From Chloroflexota bacterium (GTDB taxonomy: Bacteria; Chloroflexota; Chloroflexia; Chloroflexales; Herpetosiphonaceae): DNA of 64,000 bases. The translations under genes were made by a program, and so were the position numbers. The notes under the pieces are model-generated. The model was not told the DNA's origin, did no database searches, and saw only the letters and a program-made list of their open reading frames with translations. The stretch lies in contig JAIUOC010000001.1 in assembly GCA_020161265.1 (NCBI GenBank), positions 992,001 through 1,056,000 on the forward strand, in the 5' to 3' direction. Each line of letters begins with the position of its first letter. The stretch's first letter is position 1. Positions 32,562 through 49,018 of the stretch are shown piece by piece.

Positions 32562-35500
32562 TTAGTTGCCTTTTGCCGTGTAGGGCAAGAAGACCACATA
32601 GGTTGCTGTGCCAGTCGTTGCGGTTGGCGTAACTGAAGCAGTCGTGGTTGGCGTGGCTGTTTCAGTTGGCGTTGGCGTAATCGTTGGCGTATTGGTGATT
32701 GTTGGCGTAATACCTGGCTCCAAGGTCGCCGTATTGGTTGGCGTGTTGCTTGGAGTTGGCGTATTGGTGTTGGTTGGTGTATTGGTTGGCGTTTCGGTTG
32801 CTGTCGCCGTCGCCGTATTGGTTGGCGTATCAGTTGCCGTGGCCGTTGCCGTGTTGGTTGGTGTGTTGGTGGCTGTGGCCGTAGCTGTGTTGGTTGGCGT
32901 AGCGGTTGCCAACGAACCAAACCAATTAATATGCAAGTAGTTAATCTTGGTATTGGTGCCACCAACCGGATCAACCGTCAACTTACCATCGCTGACCGTG
33001 ACCCGCACGGTGTTGGTTTGATGCAAGCTGGCTGCGCCATTCGAGGCGTTAGCTGGCGGCACGAATTGATTGATCGCCACCACGCCTTCAATTGTGACAT
33101 TGTGCGACATTGCCGAACCACCAGCTTGAGCATCGCCGACCGCCACGGTTACATCGTAAACCCCGTTTGGAATCGAGGCTTCCCATTTGCCGCCGCCAGT
33201 CGTCAACTGCATGTGCATCAAGGTATCCAAGCGGATATCGCTATTGAAGTTGCGGCGACGTGGATCAGCGATCAAGCTCTTGGGCTGGCCAGCACTATCA
33301 ACCCAGCCATAGGTTAAACCAGAGCCTTGGCCTGGATCGACGCGCAAGCCATAGCCTTGACCATAATCCTTGACATAGCCATTAGGCACAGCGCCAGCAT
33401 CGTTGGGCTGGAAGTTGACCTTCAAGAAGAACGTGCCTTCGGGCGTTGGCGTGAAGGTGCCAATTGGCGTATTGGTTGGCGATGGCAAGGCGGTTGGGGT
33501 AGCAAAGGTCATGTTTTGCGCCCCAAAAACCTCGATTGCGCTCACAGTTGGGCGGCTAGCCTCAGGTGCGAACTTGATATTCAGCACCCCATCAGTCACG
33601 TTGACGGTGAACAAACGGGTATCAGCGGCTTTAGCACCAACCGCGAGGGTTGGGTCGTAGTCGTTGAGTACACGGGTTCCTTCGAGATTAACATCGAAGA
33701 CCCGCTTGCCAGTGCCGCCAGCAACGCCGCTCGTCACGCCAAAGAAGATTTCGGCAAAGTGCAAGCGCACGGTATATTGGCCGCTGGTTGGCACTGGAAT
33801 CGCATAATCCAAGGTTGCAGTGGTCGCGCCCGTGGCAAAGCGATCATCGTAATACAACACATCGTTATCAGTGTTGGCGACATCCCCTAAACTACCTGGG
33901 TTCGAGGTGCTACCGTTTTGCGAGTAGCTATCGGCAGCCCAGCGCACGCCATCAGGCGTGGTTACACTGCTAAACCCACCAGCATTGAAGCGGGTCAACA
34001 ATGGCAAGACTTGCACTTGCAACGAGGTTGCAACACTGCTTGAGCCATTGCTGGCGGTCACGGTTACGTTGTAGGTTCCTTTGGTTGCAAAGGCATGACG
34101 CACCTTGCCAGTGCTTTCGTTGACCACTGGCGTGCCATCGCCAAAGTTCCAAGCAAAGTTGACGTTACTGCCACAAGCCACCACCGCTTGGAAGGTAATT
34201 GCATCGTTGGGCGATGATGGGCCATTCGAGACTGCCACAACTTGTTCGATTGGCTTATCGCCAACTAAGATCGTCACGGTGTCACTGGTGCTTGCGCCTC
34301 CAGCATCGGTTGCAGTAAAACGGAAAACCAAGGTACTAGCGCTAGCCGGAGCAGTAAAGCTACGGTTGTTGCCGCTGCCCGACAAGCTTACGGCAGTGCC
34401 TTCAAGCTGAGTCCAAGCGCCCGTTACGGTCGTGTTTTCATAATCGCTGCTTGTGCCAGTCAAATTCACGCTAGCATTGAGCGCAACTTGCTGATCAGCT
34501 CCAGCATTGGCGGTTGGTGGCACATTGCCATTGACTGTGCTGGCAAAGACCTCAATTGCTGAGATTGAAGCAAAGTCCATTTCAGCATCAAAGGCCAGTT
34601 GCAATTGACCATCGACCACCATAATCCCATCGATTGGCACAATCACGGCAGCGCGAGCAGCCCCAACCGAGCCAGTAATATCGAAGTTATCGAGGATGGT
34701 TTGGCCTTCGGCACGAACATCAAACACCCGTCTGCCTGGGCCAGCAGCCCCACCACCAGGCGCACCCCAGAAGAGTTCAGCGAAGTGCAAGCGCACATCG
34801 ACTTTTTGCACCGTGGCGGGAACGCTCAGATTATAGGTAATTGTGCGAGTTGCATTGCCGACATTGCCACGATAGGTCTGATACAACGTGTCGTCGAGAG
34901 TATTTTCGATTGCTGGCGTGCCCGTGCCTTCAGCAACTGCGTTGCTTGGCTCGAATAAACCAGTATCGCCTTGCCAAACGTTGCTGGCGCTATCAGTAAA
35001 GCTGTTGGCGCTACCAACATCAACCCGTGCCAAAACTGGCCGCGTGGCGGTGGTTTCGTCAAGGCCAATCACAAATTTATCGAAGACCGCATTGAAGGTT
35101 GTATTAGTTTTGTGAGTGGTCACAATCCCCGCATTAACCTTGCGATCAAAGAAGCGTTGATAGCGGCCACCGGTCAGGGTCACTTGGCCAAGCGTCGTAA
35201 AGCTTGGGTTTGGATTGGCTGCGGTAATAATCCGATAGGCAGCGGTTGCAATCCCAGTTTTAGGATCGCCACTCAAGCGCAATTCGGTTGCCACAACATT
35301 GGCGGGGCTAGCAATCGCTGGGCTGGTTGCCACGGTTGCGATCGTGCCATTCGTTTCATTGGTAAAGACAATCACTGGTTGGGTGCTGGCCGAGCTAATC
35401 ATCAATTTCAGATAATTATCTTGTTCCATGCCCCAGAAGATGCCTGCTTGACGATTGGCACTGGTAAAGCCCGCCACGCTGCCTTCGATCCGCGTGGTAA

Positions 35501-38500
35501 TTGCAAAGCGCGAGGCTTGCGCGTTGAATGGCAGTTGCAAGGCGTTAACTTGGGTGTTGGTTGTGCCATCCTGCGTGCCTGCGGGCGAGACCAAGGTCAG
35601 CGTGCCCGCTCCTGTCGTATTCATCGTCAAGAGGGTTGGGTCATATGATGATCCAACGCTAATCTGCTTGTTATCGTTTTTATTGCGTTGGTTGATTGGA
35701 AAGCCCGTGCCAACGCTGGTGTTATCAATCAAGGTATTGGGATAATTTTGATTGAACTCCAAGTTCAGGCTTGGTGTACCTGGCATTGCCGCCACAGTTG
35801 AATCATCAACTGCGACAAACTCAGGCCGAATGTTATTGACAATATAAACATTGTCGTTGTAGTCGTAGTTGATCCCGTTGAAGTCCATCGAGAGCACATA
35901 ACTATTGGGAATCAAAGCTCCATTGCGATCACGCAATGGCCAAGCCCGCAGATAGTGCTTACCAACCGGATTGTTGTATTGGGGATCGCCCCAAGCGGTT
36001 TGCGAGATAATAAATTGGAACGTCCCCGTTGGGTTCAAGTTAATATCAAACAAATCACTGCCATCATACAAGCGAGGCAAGTAGGTTTGGCCATCGGATG
36101 GATGGTGGGTACTGGATTCTTGCAGGGTTGTGCTACCTTGGGCCGCCCAAGCAATATCGCTGGCGGTACTGGTGGTACAGCACTGGTGTAGGCCAGCTAA
36201 TTGCACCACCCGCACAGGTTTGCTCGAATCGAAGCGCGTCCAGTAAGGCGAAATCACTTCTTCGCCAATTTGGGTCAATGCGCCTGAGTCGCCATTCCAT
36301 GTTTGGCCTGGATAGACAATCTTCACGTTGTAGCCAAAGAAATCCATAATTTGTTGGATATTTGGTTCGTCGTCACCCTCGTTTTGGGCTTGCCACCAAC
36401 CGCGCAACTGAATGACTTTATTTGGTTCAGTCGCATCGTTGGTACGCAACAACATCTGGCCCGAGTGGGCAACGCCAGGCGGGTTGCTGGCTGGATCAAT
36501 CGGCGGGGTGAAATCCAAGCGAATATCACGGAAGGTATTTGGTTGCAAAATCGTTGGCAAGCTCAAGGTGCCGCTCAACGTCCAAACCCCAGTGATCGTC
36601 ATGCTACTCAAAATCAACGGGCCAGTACCAGTATTGCGCACCCGCACAACCCCAGTATTGCGGAAGTAGTTGCGTGTGCCACTCCGAGCAGCTGGATTTT
36701 GAATCTTGCTGAACATCAACCAATCGTTGTAAGGCACGTTATGCGATTCAACATTTTCGATTTCCAACTGACCAGCGCCGAAACATGCTCCAGCCAGCAC
36801 CTGCAAGGTCATCATGGTTTGGAGCTGACGTACAGCGCTTTCAATAGCTGAGCTAAAGTTTTGGTCATTGAATTGGCGCGTGCTCATAGCACCATCAATT
36901 GCTGGCCGATACATGCCTTTGAGACCAAAAGTTACGCCACCAGAGCCGCCTTGTGGCCCACCCAAAATCACCATTGGGATATAAACCCGATTGGTTGCTG
37001 GCGGGACAGTCACCGTTGGAGTCACTGTCACGGTTGGCGTACCAGGCGTGACCGTAATCGTTGGGGTAACCGTGGCCGTTGGCGTACCAGGTGTTACGCT
37101 TGGGCCAACAGTTGGGCTTGGCGTAAAGGTATTGGTTGGTTGGGTCGTACCAGGCGTGGTTGGCACCGGCGTGGTCGTAATTGTTGGCGTGTTCGATGGC
37201 GTGGCGGTGTTGGTTGCCGTCGCCGTGCTGGTTGATGTTGGTGTATTCGTCACCGTCGGCGTATTGGTTGCCGTTGGTGTGTTGGTTGGCGTATGGGTTG
37301 GGGTTGGCGTTGGTGGCTCCACATAGGCAGTGATCGTCACAAAGTTAATCTTGGTGTTGATCCCACCGTTAGCGTCGATGGTCAAGCGATTATCAGTAAC
37401 CGTAGCCACAACTGTTTGGGTTGAGTGGCGGGTTGGTGCACCAGTTGCCCCCGACGAGGCAAAGTTATTAATCGCATTTACGCCTTCAACATTGATCGTA
37501 TGCCGATCAAACTCTGGCACTTGCTGGGTTTGGGGATCACCGACCGCAACTGTGACCGAGTAGATCCCGTTTGGAACGGCAATTTCCCATGAGCCAGGTT
37601 CTTTGACCCCACCAAAGCCACCAGAAAGATCGTTGGCTCGCATGTGCATCAACGAATCGTAGCGCTTGTCGATGTTGGCAACAAAGCGATAACGGCCATT
37701 GGTATCAAGCAGAATTGGAGTGATCGTGTTGGGATTGACCCAGCCATAATACAGCGAGCCATCGCCTTGATCTTTTTCGTTACGATTGCCAAAGGCTTGA
37801 CCCCAATCGCGCATGTAGCCAACTGGCACAGCGGTCGAGGCACTTTGGAAATTAACTTGAATTGGCGTGCTCATGCTGGGCAAGCGGACTGGCCGCACAT
37901 TACGCACAATAAAAACCAAATCTTGATATTCTAAGCCAGCGGTTGCCTCTTCAAAGACCACCACATAGGCATTAGTAACCGTTGAATCGTTAGTGGTTTT
38001 GAGTGGATAAACCCGCATATGGTGAGGGTTAGCCGCATCAAAGCTGTTCAGGCTATCTTGACCATAGACCAAACGATTAGCATGGGCTGGCCATTGAGTA
38101 TAGAAATCGAAGAATTCATAGCCTGGATCGAGGGTCAAGCTGCCATTGATGCTTGGATTCAAGCGCTGAGCACTGGCATTTGGCACAGTAAAGATACTGG
38201 TGCGATTTGCCCCAGCGCTCTTGACTGGATACCAACCCAAAGTTAGGGCTGTACTAGCTGGGCCACTTGGCGCAAAGACTGCCAATGGTTCCAAGGTAAT
38301 TGGCGAGGTTGTGGCGCGGGTGAAGAAATCGGCCACAATTTCTTGGCCAAGCACCAACGATGTACCATTAGCGCTGTGGATGGGAGTAGTAGATGGATCA
38401 TCATCGCCAACATTCATTGGAAACTCATAGGTATCGAGAATCCATTGCAATGATGGCTCTGTGCCATTGGCATAGACCAGACCACGCAGCGCTCCGTCAA

Positions 38501-40676
38501 TCTTGGGATTAATTGGGTCGTTGCTTTGAATTTGGATAATTGCGCCTTTTGTGCCCAAACTTGTGGCTGCATTAGCTCGCATCACCACATTCAAGCTCAA
38601 GGTTGCGCTTGGAATTAACGTTTGGGGGAAACTTGGCAAGTTGGTAATCACAAACGAACCAGCTTCAGGCCCAATTAATTGCACCCCAGTCACGCTCAAA
38701 TTGGCTTGACCAGTATTGCTGATAACAAAGGTTTGCGTGGTTGAATCGAGTGAGCCAGCGGTTGGCCGTGCTAAATTGAACACGCGGCGAGCTGGGCGAA
38801 TATCAATCCGTGGTTCAGGCTGAATATCAGGTGTGAGCAGATAAATTTTTTCGGCCAAATAGTCGGAAACATATAAGTTACCGTTGGCGGTATTTTCAAT
38901 CACATCAAGCGGCCCTGAGAAATCTTTCATTCCAGGCAGGCCACCTTGTTCGCTGATAATTTCTTTGTTAGCACCGATCGTCAGCACAACCAAGTCTTTG
39001 CTACCGCTGTAGCGCGTAACAATCAACTTACCTTTGAGTGCGCCGTTGAAGGTATTTGATTTATATTCAATTGTGCCGTTGGGCGATTTGTGTAAGCCGA
39101 AATCCCATGAGAAGCCGCGATAGTTGCGGTCGGATTGGGTGCCAACTGGATAGCCCACATTGCTACCACCTGGCGCAACTTCAGCAGGATCGACGGCTGA
39201 GCTTGGGTTACCGCCATTCAACACCCACTCACAACGTTGCGGGTTGGGATGCCCATAATAGCCGCCTTGAGCAACCCGATAGAGAAAATCGGATTGATCA
39301 GGAATGCGGGTATTCGAGCTTGACGATAATTTTGGCACATCTGGGCCAACATAGGCTCCATTGGTCGCTACGTCAATCCGGTTTTGACATGGAGCATAGT
39401 TTGACAAATTGCTAGGCGTTGGCGGGGTATTGCCACCAGCAGCCGAGCCATTGGTTGCCGTATACAATTCGCCATTCGTGTGCCAAATCAAGTCGTAGGC
39501 ATTACGCACACCCGAAGCATAAATCGTCACAGGCACATTTGCAGCAAATGGATCATAGGTGCCACCATCTTCAGTTTGCACATTCAATGGTAACGAGCCG
39601 CTGGCCAAGGCCGTTTGATTGATCCGTAGAACCGCAGCGCCTAGTTTATGCTCTGGTCGCAAGTTCCAGCCATTATCAATATGACCCATGGCGCTATTGC
39701 TACCAACGGTCATATACAATGCACCATCCGGCCCAAACACCAGACTATTTGAGAGGTGATCGCGTGATGAACGTGGCATGCCAATCAAATAATCTTGGGC
39801 GCTGGTTAGATTGGCTCCGGTCAGGCGGGTAAGTTTACCACTCCAATCGGGGCCGTTGCTCAGAGCATAGGGGCTGTGGGTAATCCACAAAATTGGGCTG
39901 GATGGGGTTGAGGCTGGATCAAAGACCAAACCAATGATCATGCGATCTTGGGTTGTACCAGTATAGGTCCGCACCGTTTGGATGGTTAAGCTACCAGCGC
40001 TATCCAACGTGCCATCGCCATTAATCGTATAGCGCACAATTTGGCCTTTGACCGTGGCAGCGTAGAGCTTGCCATCAGGGCCAATTGCCAACGAAGTATA
40101 GCCAGAATCATTGGGCATAGTAATGCCCGTTGCAACTTTGTTAAAGCGAATATTGCCAGTTGCCGCAGGGCCACCAGCACTCCCAGTCGTAAAGGTCGAT
40201 TCATAGGCCTCAAACGGCTCACCTGCAATATCAAGCAGCAAATCGTTTGGAGCTACCCCCACATTCACCCGAAACCGATATTGGGTAAATGGGTCGAGGT
40301 AATCATTGGGATTGAGAATAATTACATCGCCCGCTGCCGAGGTGGTTAAACGGGCGGCGATTTCATAACTATCAATCACCCGAATCAATTTGACAGAAGC
40401 TGCTGTCAAGGTCTGGGGGTCAAGCCCGCCATTAGGAATATACACGTTTGCTGCAATGAAAATATCACGGTTGACCGAGGTCGAGCCGTTGAGCGGCAAG
40501 GTATCGGTTACCCGTGGTGCCTCTAGTAGGGCTTTAGCTTGAGTTGGCGTGAGTGGTTGGGCTACCGCCGGAACCGCCGCCGCCACCGTGGTTGGTGGTG
40601 CGCCCACAAGCCAAAGGTTGCTAAACAAGAATGCTGCGAGCACCCCATGCAACCAACGAACAATAGACCGCTTCAT
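32562..40676 (-). CDS. giant secreted multidomain protein, apparent fusion of two secreted proteins
   Basis: About 2704 residues (ATG 40676; the in-frame ATG at 40682 sits too close to the AGGAGGGG site). A signal peptide covers residues 1-36. Then come a Big_5/Ig-like domain (45-170) and a glucose/sorbosone-dehydrogenase-like propeller (172-630; [24 protein letters not shown]). An abnormal-spindle-like 'choice-of-anchor' domain (635-740), a VNFQ/YGW jelly roll (938-1115), a Thr/Pro linker and an internal copy of the C-terminal motif (RVYIPMVIL, near 1226) complete the first half. The second half has another spindle-like domain, a lectin-like domain (1680-1875), two malectin-like domains, two PKD/Ig domains, a second VNFQ/YGW jelly roll (2418-2585), a Thr/Pro linker and the end [11 protein letters not shown]. 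It is probably cell-surface carbohydrate binding. The reading frame is intact throughout. Confidence 0.85.
32602..32912. repeat. Thr/Pro-coding microsatellite-like repeat, copy 1
   Basis: Imperfect 12- to 24-base units such as GTTGGCGTATTGGTT (plus-strand view) encode the C-terminal TNTPT/TATAT linker of the giant protein. Similar tracts lie at 36992-37320 and 41095-41341 in the same orientation. Confidence 0.8.
36992..37320. repeat. Thr/Pro-coding microsatellite-like repeat, copy 2 (internal)
   Basis: This is a tract of the same unit type, encoding the internal Thr/Pro linker around residues 1120-1224 of the giant protein just before its internal YIPM motif. Confidence 0.8.
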
Positions 40677-40682
40677 GGTCAT

Positions 40683-41047: not shown

Positions 41048-44000
41048 TTAGTTTTTGACGGTGTACGGTAGCCAAATGCGATAGGTCGCTGTGCCTTGGG
41101 TTGCCGTAGCGCTCGGCGTTACAGTTTCGGTTGGCGTGTTGGTCGGTGTATTACTTGGCGTAGCCGTGTTGGTCGGTGTAAAGGTCGCCGTCACCGTGCC
41201 AGTCGATGTTGGCGATGGCGTATTGGTATTAGTTGGTGTATTCGTGATTGTTGGCGTATTGGTATTAGTTGGTGTGTTGGTTGCCGTCGGCGATGGTGTA
41301 TTCGTAGCCGTCGGCGATGGCGTAACGGTTGGCGTGACGTTGGCAATATTGAGAATTGGCCCCCAAACCTCAATCGCCGAAATCTTGCCTTGATCCACAT
41401 TGCCGGGCTGGCCCGTGGGCAAACTAATATTGACCGCACCATCAGTAATATTGGTAGTAAAGGTCTTGGTGATTGGCCGGAAGGTTGCGCCAGTTTCGCT
41501 GAAAATATCGAAATTGGTCAACACAGTCGTGCCTTCAAGCTGAACATTGAATTTACGCTGGTTCGGCCCAGGTCGGCCATTCGTGCCCCAATAGAGTTCG
41601 GCAAAGTGTAAACGCACAGCATACGTCCCAGTGCTGCTGACCGGAATCGTGTATTGCACCGCTGAGCCGCTGGTGTTGCGTTCAGAGCAGTACAATCGAT
41701 CAAAGTCACGAGTCACGTTGTAGATTTGGGGACACGAAACGCCTGGAATCAAGACATAGGTGCCGCCGCCAGTTGAATATGGACGGTTGGCACTTGTATC
41801 AGGACTCCAAGCAGCTCCATCGTTGGTCGTCCAATCACGATCACCGCCGTTGATTCGCGCCACAATATCGCGATAGCTCAAACGGAAGAAATCGAAAATA
41901 AATGAGATGGTATTTGGTGTTCCATGATTGGTTGCCAAAATTCCTGCTGGTGTTCCGGTATTGAAGAACCACAAAGGCACATTGATCGTGCCAATTGCAG
42001 TCCAGTTGCCGCCATCAGTTTTATAATAGGCGGTCATGGTCTGCGCAGCAGGATTACCGTCTAAGCGCAGGTCGATATTGCTCACACCTGGCAATACCAT
42101 GCTTGGATTATTATTGGTTGGATTGATTTGCAGATTTCCGGCCACTTCCATGGCAAATTGCAACCCTGTGTCGCCACTTGTGCCATCGCCATTCAAATTG
42201 GCCGTCGCTACCAATTTCACGTAGTTATCTTGGTTGGGGCCGAAGAACAAGCCCGCCGCTTGATCGCCCTCAGGCGTGCGCCCAAGAAACATTTCGGTAA
42301 TTCGCGTTTCAACCCGAAAATTACGATGGGGATCAAAGCCAATGTGCAAAGCGTTGGCTTGGGTATTGATCGAGCCAGCATTCGTGCCTTCGGTGGTGAT
42401 GATATTGGTAAAGCCACCAGCAGCGCCAACGGCAATCTTGGCCTCATCAGTTCGCGTAACTCCGTTGGTAATTTGCACCCCAGTAAAGCCCGTATTGGCA
42501 ACTTTGCCTAAGGGTGCATCACCAGGATTCCAATTGAATTCAACGGGCAATTTGGTGTTGTTGCCATTCGCTGCATCAAAATACAGCTGATCGTTGACAT
42601 CAAGAATGCCATCGTTATCATCGTCAGGATCAGTCAAATCGGAAATCATGTCGCCATCGAAATCGTTGGGTACGCTGGCGCGGCTACACAAATTGGTTGC
42701 GTTCTGATCTTCATCAAAATCGGAGTAGCCATCATTATCGCTATCAACCATGCTCGAATAGGGCGGCGGCGGCGGACAGTTGGGCAAATCTTCTGGCTCA
42801 AGGATGGTAATTGCATCGCTGCCAAATTCGGCCACATAAATCACACCCTTGGCATCGGTCACCACATCAAGCGGTTGGTTAAACTTCGCCAAGGTTTGGA
42901 TGCCAGTTGGGTTGCCATTGGCATCAAGCTGAACGCGACTGACATCTTGATTTTGACCATAGGTTGCGACAATCAAATTGCCTTGCAACGCACCACCAAA
43001 GGCATTACTGATATACGCCGTAATCCCATTGGTGGATGGTCGGAAATCATAGGTCAAGGCTGGTGGATTGTAGTTTGGTGGCGTTGGCAAACCTTGGGCA
43101 TTACCGTTGTTCAACACACATTCGCCACGGGCTGGGTTTGGATGGCCACCATACGAACCTTGGGTCACAATTTTCAGGGTATCGGGCAAATAGCGTGGGT
43201 TAATTTCCACCCCACCAGGGCATTGAGCGGCGCTCGGCGTATCGCCATAGCCATCATTGCCACCATTAACATTGGCATAGAACTTATTATTCAGCCAAAT
43301 AAAATCATAAACATTGCGATAGCCAGTCGCATACATCTCAAATTGGCCAGCAAATGGAGCTAAAGCAGCCGCATTATTGACATTTTTGACATCGATGCCT
43401 GCTGATGGAAAGCCAGCATCGCGCACATTGGCCCGCAAAATTGCTGCCGAGAGATAATATTCGGCCAAATTGCTAAAGTGAGCACTTGGCGCACCATTGT
43501 TGGTATTGCTCGACGACGAGATATACATCCAACCATCTGGACCCCAAACAATGCTATTGGTGCTGTGGTTTTCGCGTGAGCGCGGCAAACCCTTAATAAT
43601 ATCGGTCGAGGTTGCAAAATTATTGGTGCTGACTAATTTGCTAATTGTGCCTGAGCGAGTGTTGATTTTTTGCGAGGTTGTGTCGCTATTGTAGCCATAG
43701 CGTGGGTCGCTATGCGAAACATACAAAATCATATTTGATGGCGTTGAAGCCGGATCAAACAAAATCCCCACCAACTGACGACCATTCACCCCAGTTGCAG
43801 GCGAACCGTCGTCGTTGGTATTAGGATAATTGTAGATTGTTTCGATCACCTGAACGGCGGTAGCTTGATGGTTGGTTGGGTTGAGCGTAATCGCAAAAAT
43901 TCGCCCATTAAACTGGCCGACATACAAACGCCCATCAGGGCCGAAGATCATCCCAGTTGGGCTATCGAACAACGAAGCACCAGTTAATGCCGAACTTGAA

Positions 44001-44197
44001 TTAAAAATCGTTTGGCGAAAAAAACTAATGCTCCCAGAATGCACATGTTGCCGCTCAGGATTATAACTATATTGAACTGTTGAGCGCGTTTGGGCGGCTG
44101 CATCATGGATTGTTGGTTGAAATAGCAATCCACCAGCCAACAGACTGAAGATTACTAACATCACAACCACACGCGCATGAAACTGTCGTTTGATCAT
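41048..44197 (-). CDS. secreted sorbosone-dehydrogenase-like propeller protein with malectin domain
   Basis: About 1049 residues (ATG 44197, chosen for the AAAGGA site; the frame is open seven codons further). After a signal peptide comes a propeller like that of the giant protein (MIFGPDGRLYVGQFNGRIFA, GLPRSRENHSTNSIVWGPDG, LDVVTDAKGVIYVAEFG). Then come calcium-binding type 3-like repeats (DSDNDGYSDFDEDQN, DDDNDGILDVND), a lectin-like region, a malectin-like domain ([28 protein letters not shown]), a Thr/Pro linker and the C-terminal motif YRIWLPYTVKN. It shares domains and ending with the giant protein downstream, so the two are partial paralogues. It is probably a surface carbohydrate-binding or sugar-oxidising protein; catalytic residues were not verified. 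Confidence 0.85.
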   Translation of the reverse strand: MIKRQFHARVVVMLVIFSLLAGGLLFQPTIHDAAAQTRSTVQYSYNPERQHVHSGSISFFRQTIFNSSSALTGASLFDSPTGMIFGPDGRLYVGQFNGRIFAITLNPTNHQATAVQVIETIYNYPNTNDDGSPATGVNGRQLVGILFDPASTPSNMILYVSHSDPRYGYNSDTTSQKINTRSGTISKLVSTNNFATSTDIIKGLPRSRENHSTNSIVWGPDGWMYISSSSNTNNGAPSAHFSNLAEYYLSAAILRANVRDAGFPSAGIDVKNVNNAAALAPFAGQFEMYATGYRNVYDFIWLNNKFYANVNGGNDGYGDTPSAAQCPGGVEINPRYLPDTLKIVTQGSYGGHPNPARGECVLNNGNAQGLPTPPNYNPPALTYDFRPSTNGITAYISNAFGGALQGNLIVATYGQNQDVSRVQLDANGNPTGIQTLAKFNQPLDVVTDAKGVIYVAEFGSDAITILEPEDLPNCPPPPPYSSMVDSDNDGYSDFDEDQNATNLCSRASVPNDFDGDMISDLTDPDDDNDGILDVNDQLYFDAANGNNTKLPVEFNWNPGDAPLGKVANTGFTGVQITNGVTRTDEAKIAVGAAGGFTNIITTEGTNAGSINTQANALHIGFDPHRNFRVETRITEMFLGRTPEGDQAAGLFFGPNQDNYVKLVATANLNGDGTSGDTGLQFAMEVAGNLQINPTNNNPSMVLPGVSNIDLRLDGNPAAQTMTAYYKTDGGNWTAIGTINVPLWFFNTGTPAGILATNHGTPNTISFIFDFFRLSYRDIVARINGGDRDWTTNDGAAWSPDTSANRPYSTGGGTYVLIPGVSCPQIYNVTRDFDRLYCSERNTSGSAVQYTIPVSSTGTYAVRLHFAELYWGTNGRPGPNQRKFNVQLEGTTVLTNFDIFSETGATFRPITKTFTTNITDGAVNISLPTGQPGNVDQGKISAIEVWGPILNIANVTPTVTPSPTATNTPSPTATNTPTNTNTPTITNTPTNTNTPSPTSTGTVTATFTPTNTATPSNTPTNTPTETVTPSATATQGTATYRIWLPYTVKN
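41095..41341. repeat. Thr/Pro-coding microsatellite-like repeat, copy 3
   Basis: The third tract of GTTGGTGTATTGGTA-like units (plus-strand view) encodes the TNTPT/SPTAT linker of the 1049-residue protein. It lies in the same orientation as copies 1 and 2. Confidence 0.8.
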
Positions 44198-44782
44198 CAC
44201 AAATCCTTTCGAGAACATGAGCTAAGCGCAGATCAACCTGCTATTGCCAAATTCTTGCTGGTGCTACGCCTATGATCGTGCCTAGATTAGTGCGGCATGT
44301 CAAGCGACAGGCTAAGTCGAATGGGAATGTGGTGACATCTTAACAATGTTGGCCATGCCGCAAATGGCATAATGCTCATAACTCGTCCTCTAATGGTGAA
44401 CTATAGCGCATAGCAGCATGCTTGTCGTGGGAATTATGGCCTAAACTCAGGCGCTATTTCTGTGATGATCGCTCCTACACCGCATGGGTGACCTATGGGT
44501 GATAAAAGTTAAATGGCTTTAACCTTTAACTCAACCTAGCGCACATATCAGCAGAACCACACACTCCAAGGGCTGCTCAAGCCTATCGTGATAAAAATAG
44601 CGAACATCAAATGCGTCTATTACAACATATGGTTGGTTTTTTGTGCGCACGGTTTTTTAAGAATTAAGCCTGTGCTGGAGCCACATGCTCAGCAATTGCC
44701 CTCAAGCTGCCAGCTATCGGTTAAAATAGGCCTAGGCTTTCATTCAATGGTGCATGAAAGCGACATTCACTAGGAGGTTCTT
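44198..44782. other. long intergenic region between divergent genes, no gene seen
   Basis: About 585 bases between the secreted-protein gene and arginase. I see no credible gene, tRNA or repeat. Noted structures are a small hairpin at about 44737-44760 (CTTTCAT/ATGAAAG) 20 bases before arginase and a direct repeat of ATGGGTGA. A 61-codon open frame at 44588 lacks a ribosome site. Confidence 0.5.
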
Positions 44783-45767: not shown

Positions 45768-47795
45768 TTATTCCGCCCGAATCGCGTAGGGCAGCCAAAT
45801 TTTCCATTCGGTTTGTGGCGGCGCTTGCACCACCACGGTTGTTGTATCCGTTTGCGAATTGGTGCCATTGCTGGCGGTTAACTCAACCGTATAATTCCCA
45901 GCGTTTGGATAGGTATGACTAATCGTGGTATTGGTTGAGGTCATCACAGCAGTACCATCACCAAAATCCCACGCATAGGTTACATTCGTACCAGCCTGAA
46001 TCGTAGCCTCAAAATTGGTAGCTGCACCAACAACGGTTGGGCCATCGTTGGTTGCTTCCAAGCCAGCAATCGCTTGATCAGGGGTGCTGGTTGGTTCGCG
46101 TACCAAAATCAAGCCGCGTGAAATATCGCTGATCATCAAGGTGCCGCTTGGCAAGTAGGGATAAACCCCCCAAGCCCCATCGAAACTAGCTGAATTGCTG
46201 CCTGGGTAGGTATCAAAGAAGGCGGCTTCTTGGATGCTATTTGGATTGGTTATGTCAAGAATCGTCAAACCACGCAAATAGTTCGACATATAATATTTGT
46301 TGCCAATCGTGTAGCCATTATGGTCGATCGCACGGGTTGGGCCATCCCACGTCGCGCTGATGGTTGGATTATCCAGATCATGAATATCCATCGTGCGCAC
46401 ACGAGTGTTGTGGCCAAAATTTTGTTCATCCAATTCATCTTGGATGAACACATACATTTTATCGTCGCTATACCAGCCAGAGTGGGTATAACCACTGCCC
46501 GAATAAGGCCGTGAGCTAATGTGGAATGGGGCAGCCGAATCGGTAATATCCCAAATTTCTACCGACGATTCGCTGAAATCAAACATTATTTCGCACGAGG
46601 CTTGGTGGCCAGGCGCACATGCCGAAGTCCGCGAATCAGTAATGATCATACTGGTATCGTCGTGGGTGTAGCTAATATTGGTATCCGGCACGCCACTATC
46701 AATAATCTGCGGAGTCAACGGATTGCTGATATTAAAGGCGCGAAACACCCCTGAATTCAAGCGACTGCCGTTTTTACCGACCCCGTTCATATACAACGCC
46801 GCAGTTTTGCCAGGCAACGCCACGTTGGTGCTGAAATCAACATTCTTAATATAGACAGTGTGCGATGAGCCAAAATCGGCAGTATAGGTTGCTGCTAAAC
46901 TGACCGAAGGCGTTGGATCACTCAAGTGGTTCAGATCGACAATCTGCAAGCCTTGGGTGCGACTTTCAGTTGAAAGGTAGGCATAGGCGTTCCAACGATT
47001 TTGGGCTTGGTTGAAATATTGATAAACCTTAACTTCGCGCCATTGTGAGTTATTACCTGGCACAGTACCAATCACCACCGGATTGGTAGGATCAGTCACA
47101 TCAACTACGCCAGTGCCATTGTTAACCCCAATAATCGCATATTCGCGATCGGTATTGAGATCGACGTGGCCCCACAAGTTGCTGCCATCGGTTGCGCCGT
47201 TACCATTAACCACAAAACTTGAGAGCGGCACGCTCCCCAAGAAGTCGATGCCATTACACTCAAAAATGCCAGCCATGCCATTGGTACAAGGCTGAGCAGC
47301 ACTTGGCGTTTCCAATTCGGTTGGAATTTGCATTCGCTCAAGTTCTGGAGTATTACGACCATCGCGATCTTCAACCCGTGCAAAACCAATTGCCGCCAAG
47401 CGTTCACGGTAGCGGCTAGGAATGCCAGCGATATAGGTTGGATTGGCTTTGGTATTTTGCTGCATGAAATTATCACGAGCACTAAAACCACCGCGCACCG
47501 GAATCTGGCGGCTCAGCAATAAGCCAACCGCCTTGGCATCGTAGCTATAATCGCCGGCAGCAACCCGAATTTCATCACCCTTGCCAGTCCCGCGGCTAAT
47601 CGCATAATCGATCGTCGCACAGGGCTGCCAAATCTTCGAACAATCACCCTCATCTTTGCCAAATGGTGCAACATAAATCTTATGATCATGATTGCTATGG
47701 GCCGAAATCGAAGCAATTGGCGCTAACACAAACGCCGCCAACACTGCAAAACCGACCGCTAACGAACGCGACCAACGTCCATTGTGTGTGTGCAT
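45768..47795 (-). CDS. secreted choice-of-anchor B / LVIVD-repeat protein with PKD domain
   Basis: A 675-residue secreted protein. The signal peptide (LAVGFAVLAAFVLAPIASISAHS) is followed by a PbH1-like start (KIYVAPFGKDEGDC) and a propeller of LVIVD-type repeats (AIIGVNNGTGVVDVTDPTNP, LQIVDLNHLSDPT, LTILDITNPNSI), the choice-of-anchor B layout. A PKD domain follows (TYAWDFGDGTAVMTSTN), and the protein ends in the shared motif EWKIWLPYAIRAE. The lectin and malectin modules of its neighbours are absent. It is probably a surface-attached protein of unknown ligand. GTGAGG precedes the ATG. Confidence 0.85.
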   Translation of the reverse strand: MHTHNGRWSRSLAVGFAVLAAFVLAPIASISAHSNHDHKIYVAPFGKDEGDCSKIWQPCATIDYAISRGTGKGDEIRVAAGDYSYDAKAVGLLLSRQIPVRGGFSARDNFMQQNTKANPTYIAGIPSRYRERLAAIGFARVEDRDGRNTPELERMQIPTELETPSAAQPCTNGMAGIFECNGIDFLGSVPLSSFVVNGNGATDGSNLWGHVDLNTDREYAIIGVNNGTGVVDVTDPTNPVVIGTVPGNNSQWREVKVYQYFNQAQNRWNAYAYLSTESRTQGLQIVDLNHLSDPTPSVSLAATYTADFGSSHTVYIKNVDFSTNVALPGKTAALYMNGVGKNGSRLNSGVFRAFNISNPLTPQIIDSGVPDTNISYTHDDTSMIITDSRTSACAPGHQASCEIMFDFSESSVEIWDITDSAAPFHISSRPYSGSGYTHSGWYSDDKMYVFIQDELDEQNFGHNTRVRTMDIHDLDNPTISATWDGPTRAIDHNGYTIGNKYYMSNYLRGLTILDITNPNSIQEAAFFDTYPGSNSASFDGAWGVYPYLPSGTLMISDISRGLILVREPTSTPDQAIAGLEATNDGPTVVGAATNFEATIQAGTNVTYAWDFGDGTAVMTSTNTTISHTYPNAGNYTVELTASNGTNSQTDTTTVVVQAPPQTEWKIWLPYAIRAE

Positions 47796-47942: not shown

Positions 47943-48989
47943 ATGGCCGATCGTGAACAAATTCGCCTGACTGAGCTAGCTTCTTGTGCTGGCTGAGCCG
48001 CCAAAATGGGAGCAGGTGCTCTCAGCAGTTTAATTAGCAGTTTGCGTTTACCCAGTAGTCCGCAGCTTTTAGTTGGCCTCGATGTCAGCGATGATGCGGC
48101 GGTCTATCAACTCAACCAACAGCAAGCGCTTGTGCAAACGGTGGATTTCTTTCCGCCGATTGTTGATGATCCCTATAGTTTTGGGGCGATTGCCGCCGCC
48201 AATGCCCTGAGTGATGTTTATGCCATGGGCGGTAAGCCGATTTTGGCTTTGGCAATTGCTGGATTCCCCCGCGATTTAGACCCAGCGATCATTCAGGCGA
48301 TTATGCAGGGCGGTGCAGATAAAGTGGCCGAAGCCGGAGCCGTGCTAGCTGGCGGCCATACGATCATCGATAATGAGCCAAAATATGGTTTATGCGTAAC
48401 TGGTTTAATCGATCCAGCCCTAATCACCCGTAAAGCTCAAGCCCAACCAGGCGATCAACTATACCTTACTAAAGCGCTGGGCACAGGTATCATTAGCACC
48501 GCCAGCAAGCGCCAAGTTGCTGATCCTGCTGATTTAGCAGCCGCAATCGAGAGCATGCTCAAACTCAATCAACGCGCAGCTGAGCATATCGCGGCGCTGG
48601 GCACAATTCGTAGTGCCACCGATATCACTGGGTTTGGTTTGTTGGGCCATGGCTTGGAGCTAGCTCGCAATAGTGGGGTTGGGCTACAGATTAATAGCCA
48701 AGCCTTACCGTTGTTACCAGGAGCCTATCGTTACGCCCAAGCCGGAATTATGCCTGGTGGCTTGCATACCAATCGTGCTTATGTCGAGCAAAAAATTCAA
48801 GTTAATTACGCTGAAGCAGTTGATCCAGCCCATCAAGCGTTGTTGTACGATCCCCAAACATCAGGCGGCTTGTTGATTGCGGTAACGGCAGAGCATGCCA
48901 ATGCCCTCGAACAACGTTTTGCCCAAGCTGGCGACCCACTTTGGTTAATTGGCGAGGTAATCGCGCAGCAAGTGATTGAAATTGTTTAG
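47943..48989 (+). CDS. selD: selenide, water dikinase (selenophosphate synthetase), selenocysteine-containing
   Basis: Read from ATG 47943 through the in-frame TGA at 47994-47996, this gives 348 residues. The N-terminus is LTELASCAG-U-AAKMGAGALS, the selD active-site loop with Sec18 in place of the catalytic Cys (Cys17 of the E. coli enzyme) and the essential Lys at 21. Other family motifs are GLDVSDDAAVY, TVDFFPPIVDDPYSFGAIAAANALSDVYAMGG, GGHTIIDNEPKYG and TSGGLLIAV. The enzyme makes selenophosphate from selenide and ATP for selenocysteine synthesis. A minihelix with a GGU loop begins 11 bases after the TGA. A start at the later ATG 48006 would lose the catalytic loop. selA, selB and selC are not in the window. 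Confidence 0.92.
48008..48023 (+). promoter_or_regulatory. bacterial-type SECIS hairpin in selD
   Basis: GGGAGC (48008-48013) pairs with GCTCTC (48018-48023), including one G-U pair, around an AGGT loop. The stem starts 11 bases after the UGA. The short helix with GGU in the loop at this spacing matches the SelB-binding minihelix known from E. coli fdhF. Confidence 0.75.
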
Positions 48990-49018
48990 ATTGGAAATTA
49001 GAGGCTAGATTTTTTACT

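Follow-up and report, generated by a model that had tools for sequence, protein, structure and literature searches.

Selenocysteine-Containing SelD Proteins and Bacterial SECIS Elements

Selenocysteine (Sec) occupies the catalytic position in 19% of the prokaryotic SelD proteins detected in a reference set (PMC4561486), and among prokaryotic selenoprotein families Sec-SelD ranks second in size (PMC13188914). In the described prokaryotic Sec-SelD/SPS2 genes, the UGA lies in the active-site loop within a U-x-x-K motif, and the SECIS element follows just downstream in the coding sequence (PMC4561486, PMC1794560). The consensus for bacterial SECIS elements places G in the first two positions of a loop of 3–9 nt, carried by an upper stem of 4–16 bp, with the loop 16–37 nt from the UGA (PMC13188914). 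Chloroflexi selenoproteins were counted in 2006, in a study that also proposed SelD and FdhA as the two families keeping the Sec trait alive (PMC1794560). Our literature search found no paper on the selenoproteins of the genus or order studied here. As a yardstick for hairpin geometry we use the E. coli fdhF SECIS, which has a stem beginning 11 nt past the UGA and a GGU in the apical loop.

The selD gene analyzed here lies in a 64,000-nt stretch of contig JAIUOC010000001.1 from a Chloroflexota bacterium of the Herpetosiphonaceae (hereafter the window). Its hairpin is like that of fdhF in the distance between stem and UGA and in the GGU of the apical loop, but it belongs to a different gene, has a four-base loop, and has a weak lower stem. 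The gene shares with other prokaryotic Sec-SelD/SPS2 genes the same-loop UGA, the U-x-x-K motif, the SECIS just downstream within the coding sequence and a full SelD score, and differs from them in nothing essential, although its host genome has no detected Sec-FdhA and no YbbB above cut-off. The E. coli-type Cys SelD (3u0o) belongs to the same enzyme family, but has Cys in place of Sec, making recoding unnecessary. A Sec-containing SelD is itself already known, and the surprise implied by an earlier note on this DNA was overstated (PMC4561486, PMC1794560); less ordinary is a difference within the class in the distance between hairpin and UGA.

The selD Frame and Its UGA Codon

On the comparisons below, we consider it very probable (roughly 0.96) that the gene is a functional selD whose product is a selenoprotein, with Sec predicted to be inserted at UGA codon 18 and enzyme activity presumed. 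With TGA translated as U, the protein begins MADREQIRLTELASCAGUAAKMGAGAL..., contains only this one TGA, and ends at a TAG codon (48987–48989; Table 1). The readthrough product scores 387.5 bits against TIGR00476 (curated cut-off 125), and the UGA aligns opposite the catalytic Cys of the solved SelD chains 3u0o (E 1e-75, alignment spanning residues 5–341) and 2yye (E 2e-67), in agreement with the earlier note, which had placed an in-frame UGA at the catalytic Cys/Sec position of a selD gene at 47943–48996. The start of that span is correct, and the true end, 48989, lies 7 bases earlier. Within the loop SCAG-U-AAK, both U18 and K21 of the C/U-x-x-K motif are in place; the retention of the essential lysine had also been pointed out, and Lys21 is invariant in our alignment A1. 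As had been anticipated for standard gene finding, the ORF list (table 11) holds just a truncated ORF without the SelD active-site residues. The gene stands alone: its neighbors, both on the opposite strand, encode a choice-of-anchor B protein and a YaeI-like phosphodiesterase, and the selA, selB, and tRNA-Sec genes do not cluster with it. A search of the whole window against Rfam gave no matches.

Table 1. Coordinates of the selD features in the window and of the second UGA gene elsewhere in the genome
Feature	Position	Strand	Basis
selD coding sequence through UGA, selenide water dikinase, 348 aa	47943–48989	+	TIGR00476; PDB chains 3u0o/2yye
17 codons before UGA; genus-level variation synonymous only	47943–47993	+	Codon comparison, genus
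UGA, predicted selenocysteine 18, catalytic position	47994–47996	+	Translation; class-wide TGA; PDB alignment
AAA, Lys21, active-site loop U-x-x-K	48003–48005	+	Invariant in alignment A1
Internal ATG, standard gene-finder start; product without active-site residues	48006–48008	+	ORF list
Bacterial SECIS-type minihelix, 6 bp, AGGU loop (48014–48017), 11 nt after UGA	48008–48023	+	Hairpin; constraint
PrdB/GrdB-like UGA gene	L217:525–1445 (about G000:C12:15591–16430)	-	UGIC; 8-bp hairpin

Sec Machinery and Proposed Decoding

The genome (G000; 6.04 Mb, 99.98% complete) contains a tRNA-Sec with anticodon TCA (UCA) at C8:406153 (62.6 bits, gathering threshold 47), a SelB of 627 residues at C2:249563 (319 bits, cut-off 242), and a SelA of 446 residues at C5:278387 (536 bits, cut-off 268). 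The earlier note had predicted that the organism decodes selenocysteine, and had held that the absence of selB and selC, or a Cys codon at 47994, would speak against it. All three machinery genes are present in the same genome, independent genomes carry the same TGA, and a further UGA gene of the kind it had suggested looking for was found in the same genome (PrdB/GrdB-like, with a UGIC motif).

We propose that the GGU-loop minihelix binds SelB with its Sec-tRNA-Sec, so that a ribosome reaching the UGA at codon 18 of the same mRNA would receive selenocysteine from it instead of terminating, as in established bacterial biology. By the established pathway, SelD would supply the selenophosphate with which SelA makes Sec-tRNA. 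The cell would then need SelD to make SelD itself as well as one or more other selenoproteins, among them the PrdB/GrdB-like UGIC protein, which may be the main client of SelD. At low selenium the UGA would presumably act more often as a stop, and less SelD would be made.

Conservation of the UGA and Alternative Readings

Of the 158 class genomes, 108 have a SelD above cut-off with exactly one in-frame TGA, and the six genus genomes are all among them. The genus is probably Herpetosiphon; the SelD of a Roseiflexaceae record, L090, begins identically to that of L201, a member of the order. In 5 of the 158 a SelD match covers the site without a TGA, and the three of these that were read (L038, L189, and L190) have the Cys codon TGC. 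SelB or tRNA-Sec accompanies the TGA-SelD in 104 of the 108 genomes, and in 53/54 of those that are at least 95% complete. Across the 158 genomes, SelD and SelB co-occur (both in 105, neither in 32, one only in 21; Fisher p 1e-15). Among the six genus genomes, 8 of the 17 codons 5′ of the UGA vary, all 8 synonymously, while 46 of the 199 variable codons further downstream are non-synonymous; the constraint on the upstream codons implies that this region is translated.

That the gene is a pseudogene, or that it encodes a Cys protein whose TGT or TGC was missequenced as TGA, is extremely unlikely. Cys homologues do exist, and a one-base change would be enough; however, the presence of the TGA in independent genomes excludes sequencing error, and together with the constrained upstream codons it excludes either version of this reading. 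The frame is, moreover, otherwise intact and evolves under purifying selection before and after the UGA, and SelA, SelB, and tRNA-Sec are at hand. We regard as scarcely credible a start at ATG 48006 with the upstream frame untranslated, which would yield a SelD-like product lacking the Cys/Sec loop and serving some other role, as with metazoan SPS1. This is the ORF that standard gene finding gives, but such a product would lose Lys21 of the active-site loop, the ATG sits at the base of the conserved hairpin, and the SelD active-site motif encoded upstream of it is kept class-wide, with only synonymous changes in the genus.

Decoding of the UGA by near-cognate readthrough (e.g. as Trp or Arg) has a precedent in the non-Sec UGA readthrough of SPS1 described in Hymenoptera (PMC4561486). 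It is nonetheless very improbable here, given the Sec machinery of the genome, the conservation of the SECIS-like element, and the outgroup loci, where every correctly parsed case has TGA, TGC, or TGT as the homologous codon. Sec insertion at codon 18 is the reading that we retain.

Several genomes depart from the general pattern. G013, G038, and G094 (96–99% complete) have SelB and no SelD above cut-off, which may reflect an assembly gap or a true loss; G013 also has a tRNA-Sec, and G013 and G094 also have the PrdB-like UGA gene. The single-contig genome G006 has a tRNA-Sec (C1:4496440–4496532, 70.9 bits) with no SelB, no SelD above cut-off, and no PrdB-like match; this tRNA gene is a possible relic selC.

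The SECIS-Type Hairpin

The hairpin consists of the strands GGGAGC (48008–48013) and GCTCTC (48018–48023) enclosing the loop AGGT. Its folding energy by itself is moderately better than that of shuffled sequences and not exceptional (z −2.3 for the 21-nt hairpin, −1.8 for 42 nt from the UGA, and 0.1 for a 45-nt stretch). Its geometry accords with the bacterial SECIS model, with 6 bp, G at the second position of AGGU, and 17 nt from UGA to loop (PMC13188914). To gauge constraint, we compared 50 SelD genes from the order and ranked third-base variability over 104 conserved fourfold-degenerate codons. Variability was lowest, counting codons from the UGA, at Pro+6 (rank 1), Gly+5 (rank 2), Gly−1 (rank 3), and Ala+8 (rank 4). 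Codons +5, +6, and +8 make up the hairpin stem, and +7 carries the GGU of the loop. Three of the four most frozen synonymous sites among the 104 (ranks 1, 2, and 4) thus lie in the stem, which implies selection on the RNA, the evolutionary constraint expected of a SECIS. The six-pair minihelix with an AGGU loop, 11 bases past the UGA, that had been read from this sequence alone is therefore borne out both by its geometry and by its frozen stem codons. The Gly codon at 47991–47993, directly before the UGA, ranks third among the frozen silent sites of the gene, with GGC in 44 of the 50 order genes.

All 215 of 215 pair cells of the stem in the order hold standard pairs. In three order sequences, both sides of one stem pair have changed, turning G-C into A-U; this may be a single event, and the covariation is modest. 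In the genus, the hairpin register is shifted by one, with the AGGU loop closed by a C-G pair, and the GGU position is unchanged. None of the six pairs is broken in any of the six genus sequences, and one pair alone varies, on one side, from G-U to A-U.

A Second UGA Gene and Other Uses of Selenium

A PrdB/GrdB-like frame of about 306 codons on contig C12 adjoins a thioredoxin gene, lying downstream of it and of an adenylate-kinase-like gene, and has its UGA in ...LTPA-UGIC-NQSVGLIARVLEAAG... The encoded protein passes the Pfam GRDB cut-off (25.3 against 22) and falls below that of TIGR04483, the D-proline reductase PrdB family (164.5 bits against 300). An 8-bp stem, AUCAGUCC-GUG-GGACUGAU, stands 3′ of the UGA and is nearly invariant. 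One TGA is present in 6/6 genus genomes and in most matches elsewhere in the class, and a few matches have two. These comparisons suggest that the PrdB-like protein is nearly always a selenoprotein in the class, its UGA being conserved in genus and order. The homologues with two in-frame TGAs (G134, G131, G053, G052, G098, G094, and G135) perhaps carry two Sec residues. The thioredoxin neighbor is found at 6/6 genus loci and at 0/24 other loci. A search with PF09338 for a PrdA/GrdE-type partner gave zero matches in the genome and likewise zero in the control genomes.

The genome encodes five PF00384 proteins, all without the internal stop that would indicate Sec-FdhA. YbbB, for selenouridine, does not pass its cut-off in any genome across the class, which agrees with published work finding no selenouridine in Chloroflexi (PMC1794560, PMC5322559). 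The UGSC family search gave zero matches, and its control was likewise silent. A concatenated query of redox proteins, thioredoxin-type and others, served solely as a probe and itself found no UGA protein; its thioredoxin match led to the adjoining PrdB-like gene. The sole row of this probe with stops, the Bcp-like L220, was a false alarm, its TAA and TGA lying beyond the gene end. When the UGA frames of the fetched loci were compared all against all, the groups other than SelD and the PrdB-like protein among the matches listed look like antisense or frame shadows.

Within the part of the known selenoprotein families that was searched, SelD most likely serves itself and the PrdB-like protein, and the Sec trait here seems to rest on these two, Sec-FdhA not having been found in the genome and YbbB being absent. 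Standard gene finders will probably cut both UGA genes short, and annotation should count the bacterium as selenium-using.

Two Hairpin Positions within the Class

The near hairpin of the order has its GGU loop at about +17 nt from the UGA. Most SelD genes in other orders are without it and have a far hairpin, GGCGCAGGUNCUGCGCC, with its loop at about +33, some 15 nt further on. Outside the order, 30 genes have the far hairpin only, 6 both, 6 the near one only, and 4 neither; inside the order, the counts are near 50, far 3, and neither 1. The frozen silent sites of the far set are Ala+10, Leu+13, and Leu+9 (ranks 1, 1, and 3 of 113), and Pro+6 is there the most variable. SelD hairpins of both the near and the far kind occur in outgroup phyla, and both loop distances are inside the published bacterial range of 16–37 nt (PMC13188914). 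Far-type elements about 26–42 nt after the SelD UGA are seen in L021, L025, L037, L134, and others, and both hairpins seem to be present in the family f5 genomes L166, L172, L198, and L206.

Since the hairpin occurs at either distance, with the synonymous constraint shifting accordingly, the SelB proteins of these lineages would work at both. We somewhat favor a reading in which the SECIS has moved within one class and gene family, with SelB tolerating both distances, and in which SelD and an uncharacterized PrdB-like selenoprotein, rather than FdhA or selenouridine, apparently keep the Sec trait. We found no description of such a within-family SECIS shift in the openly available papers. The two hairpin positions amount to a natural experiment on the permissible distance between SECIS and UGA.

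Other Observations in the Window

Two very long and apparently secreted proteins of 2706 and 1056 residues are encoded at 32562–40682 and 41048–44218 on the minus strand. They have linkers rich in Thr, Pro, and Asn and similar C-terminal ends, which are perhaps a shared sorting signal. The protein encoded at 45768–47795 ends in IWLPYAIRAE.
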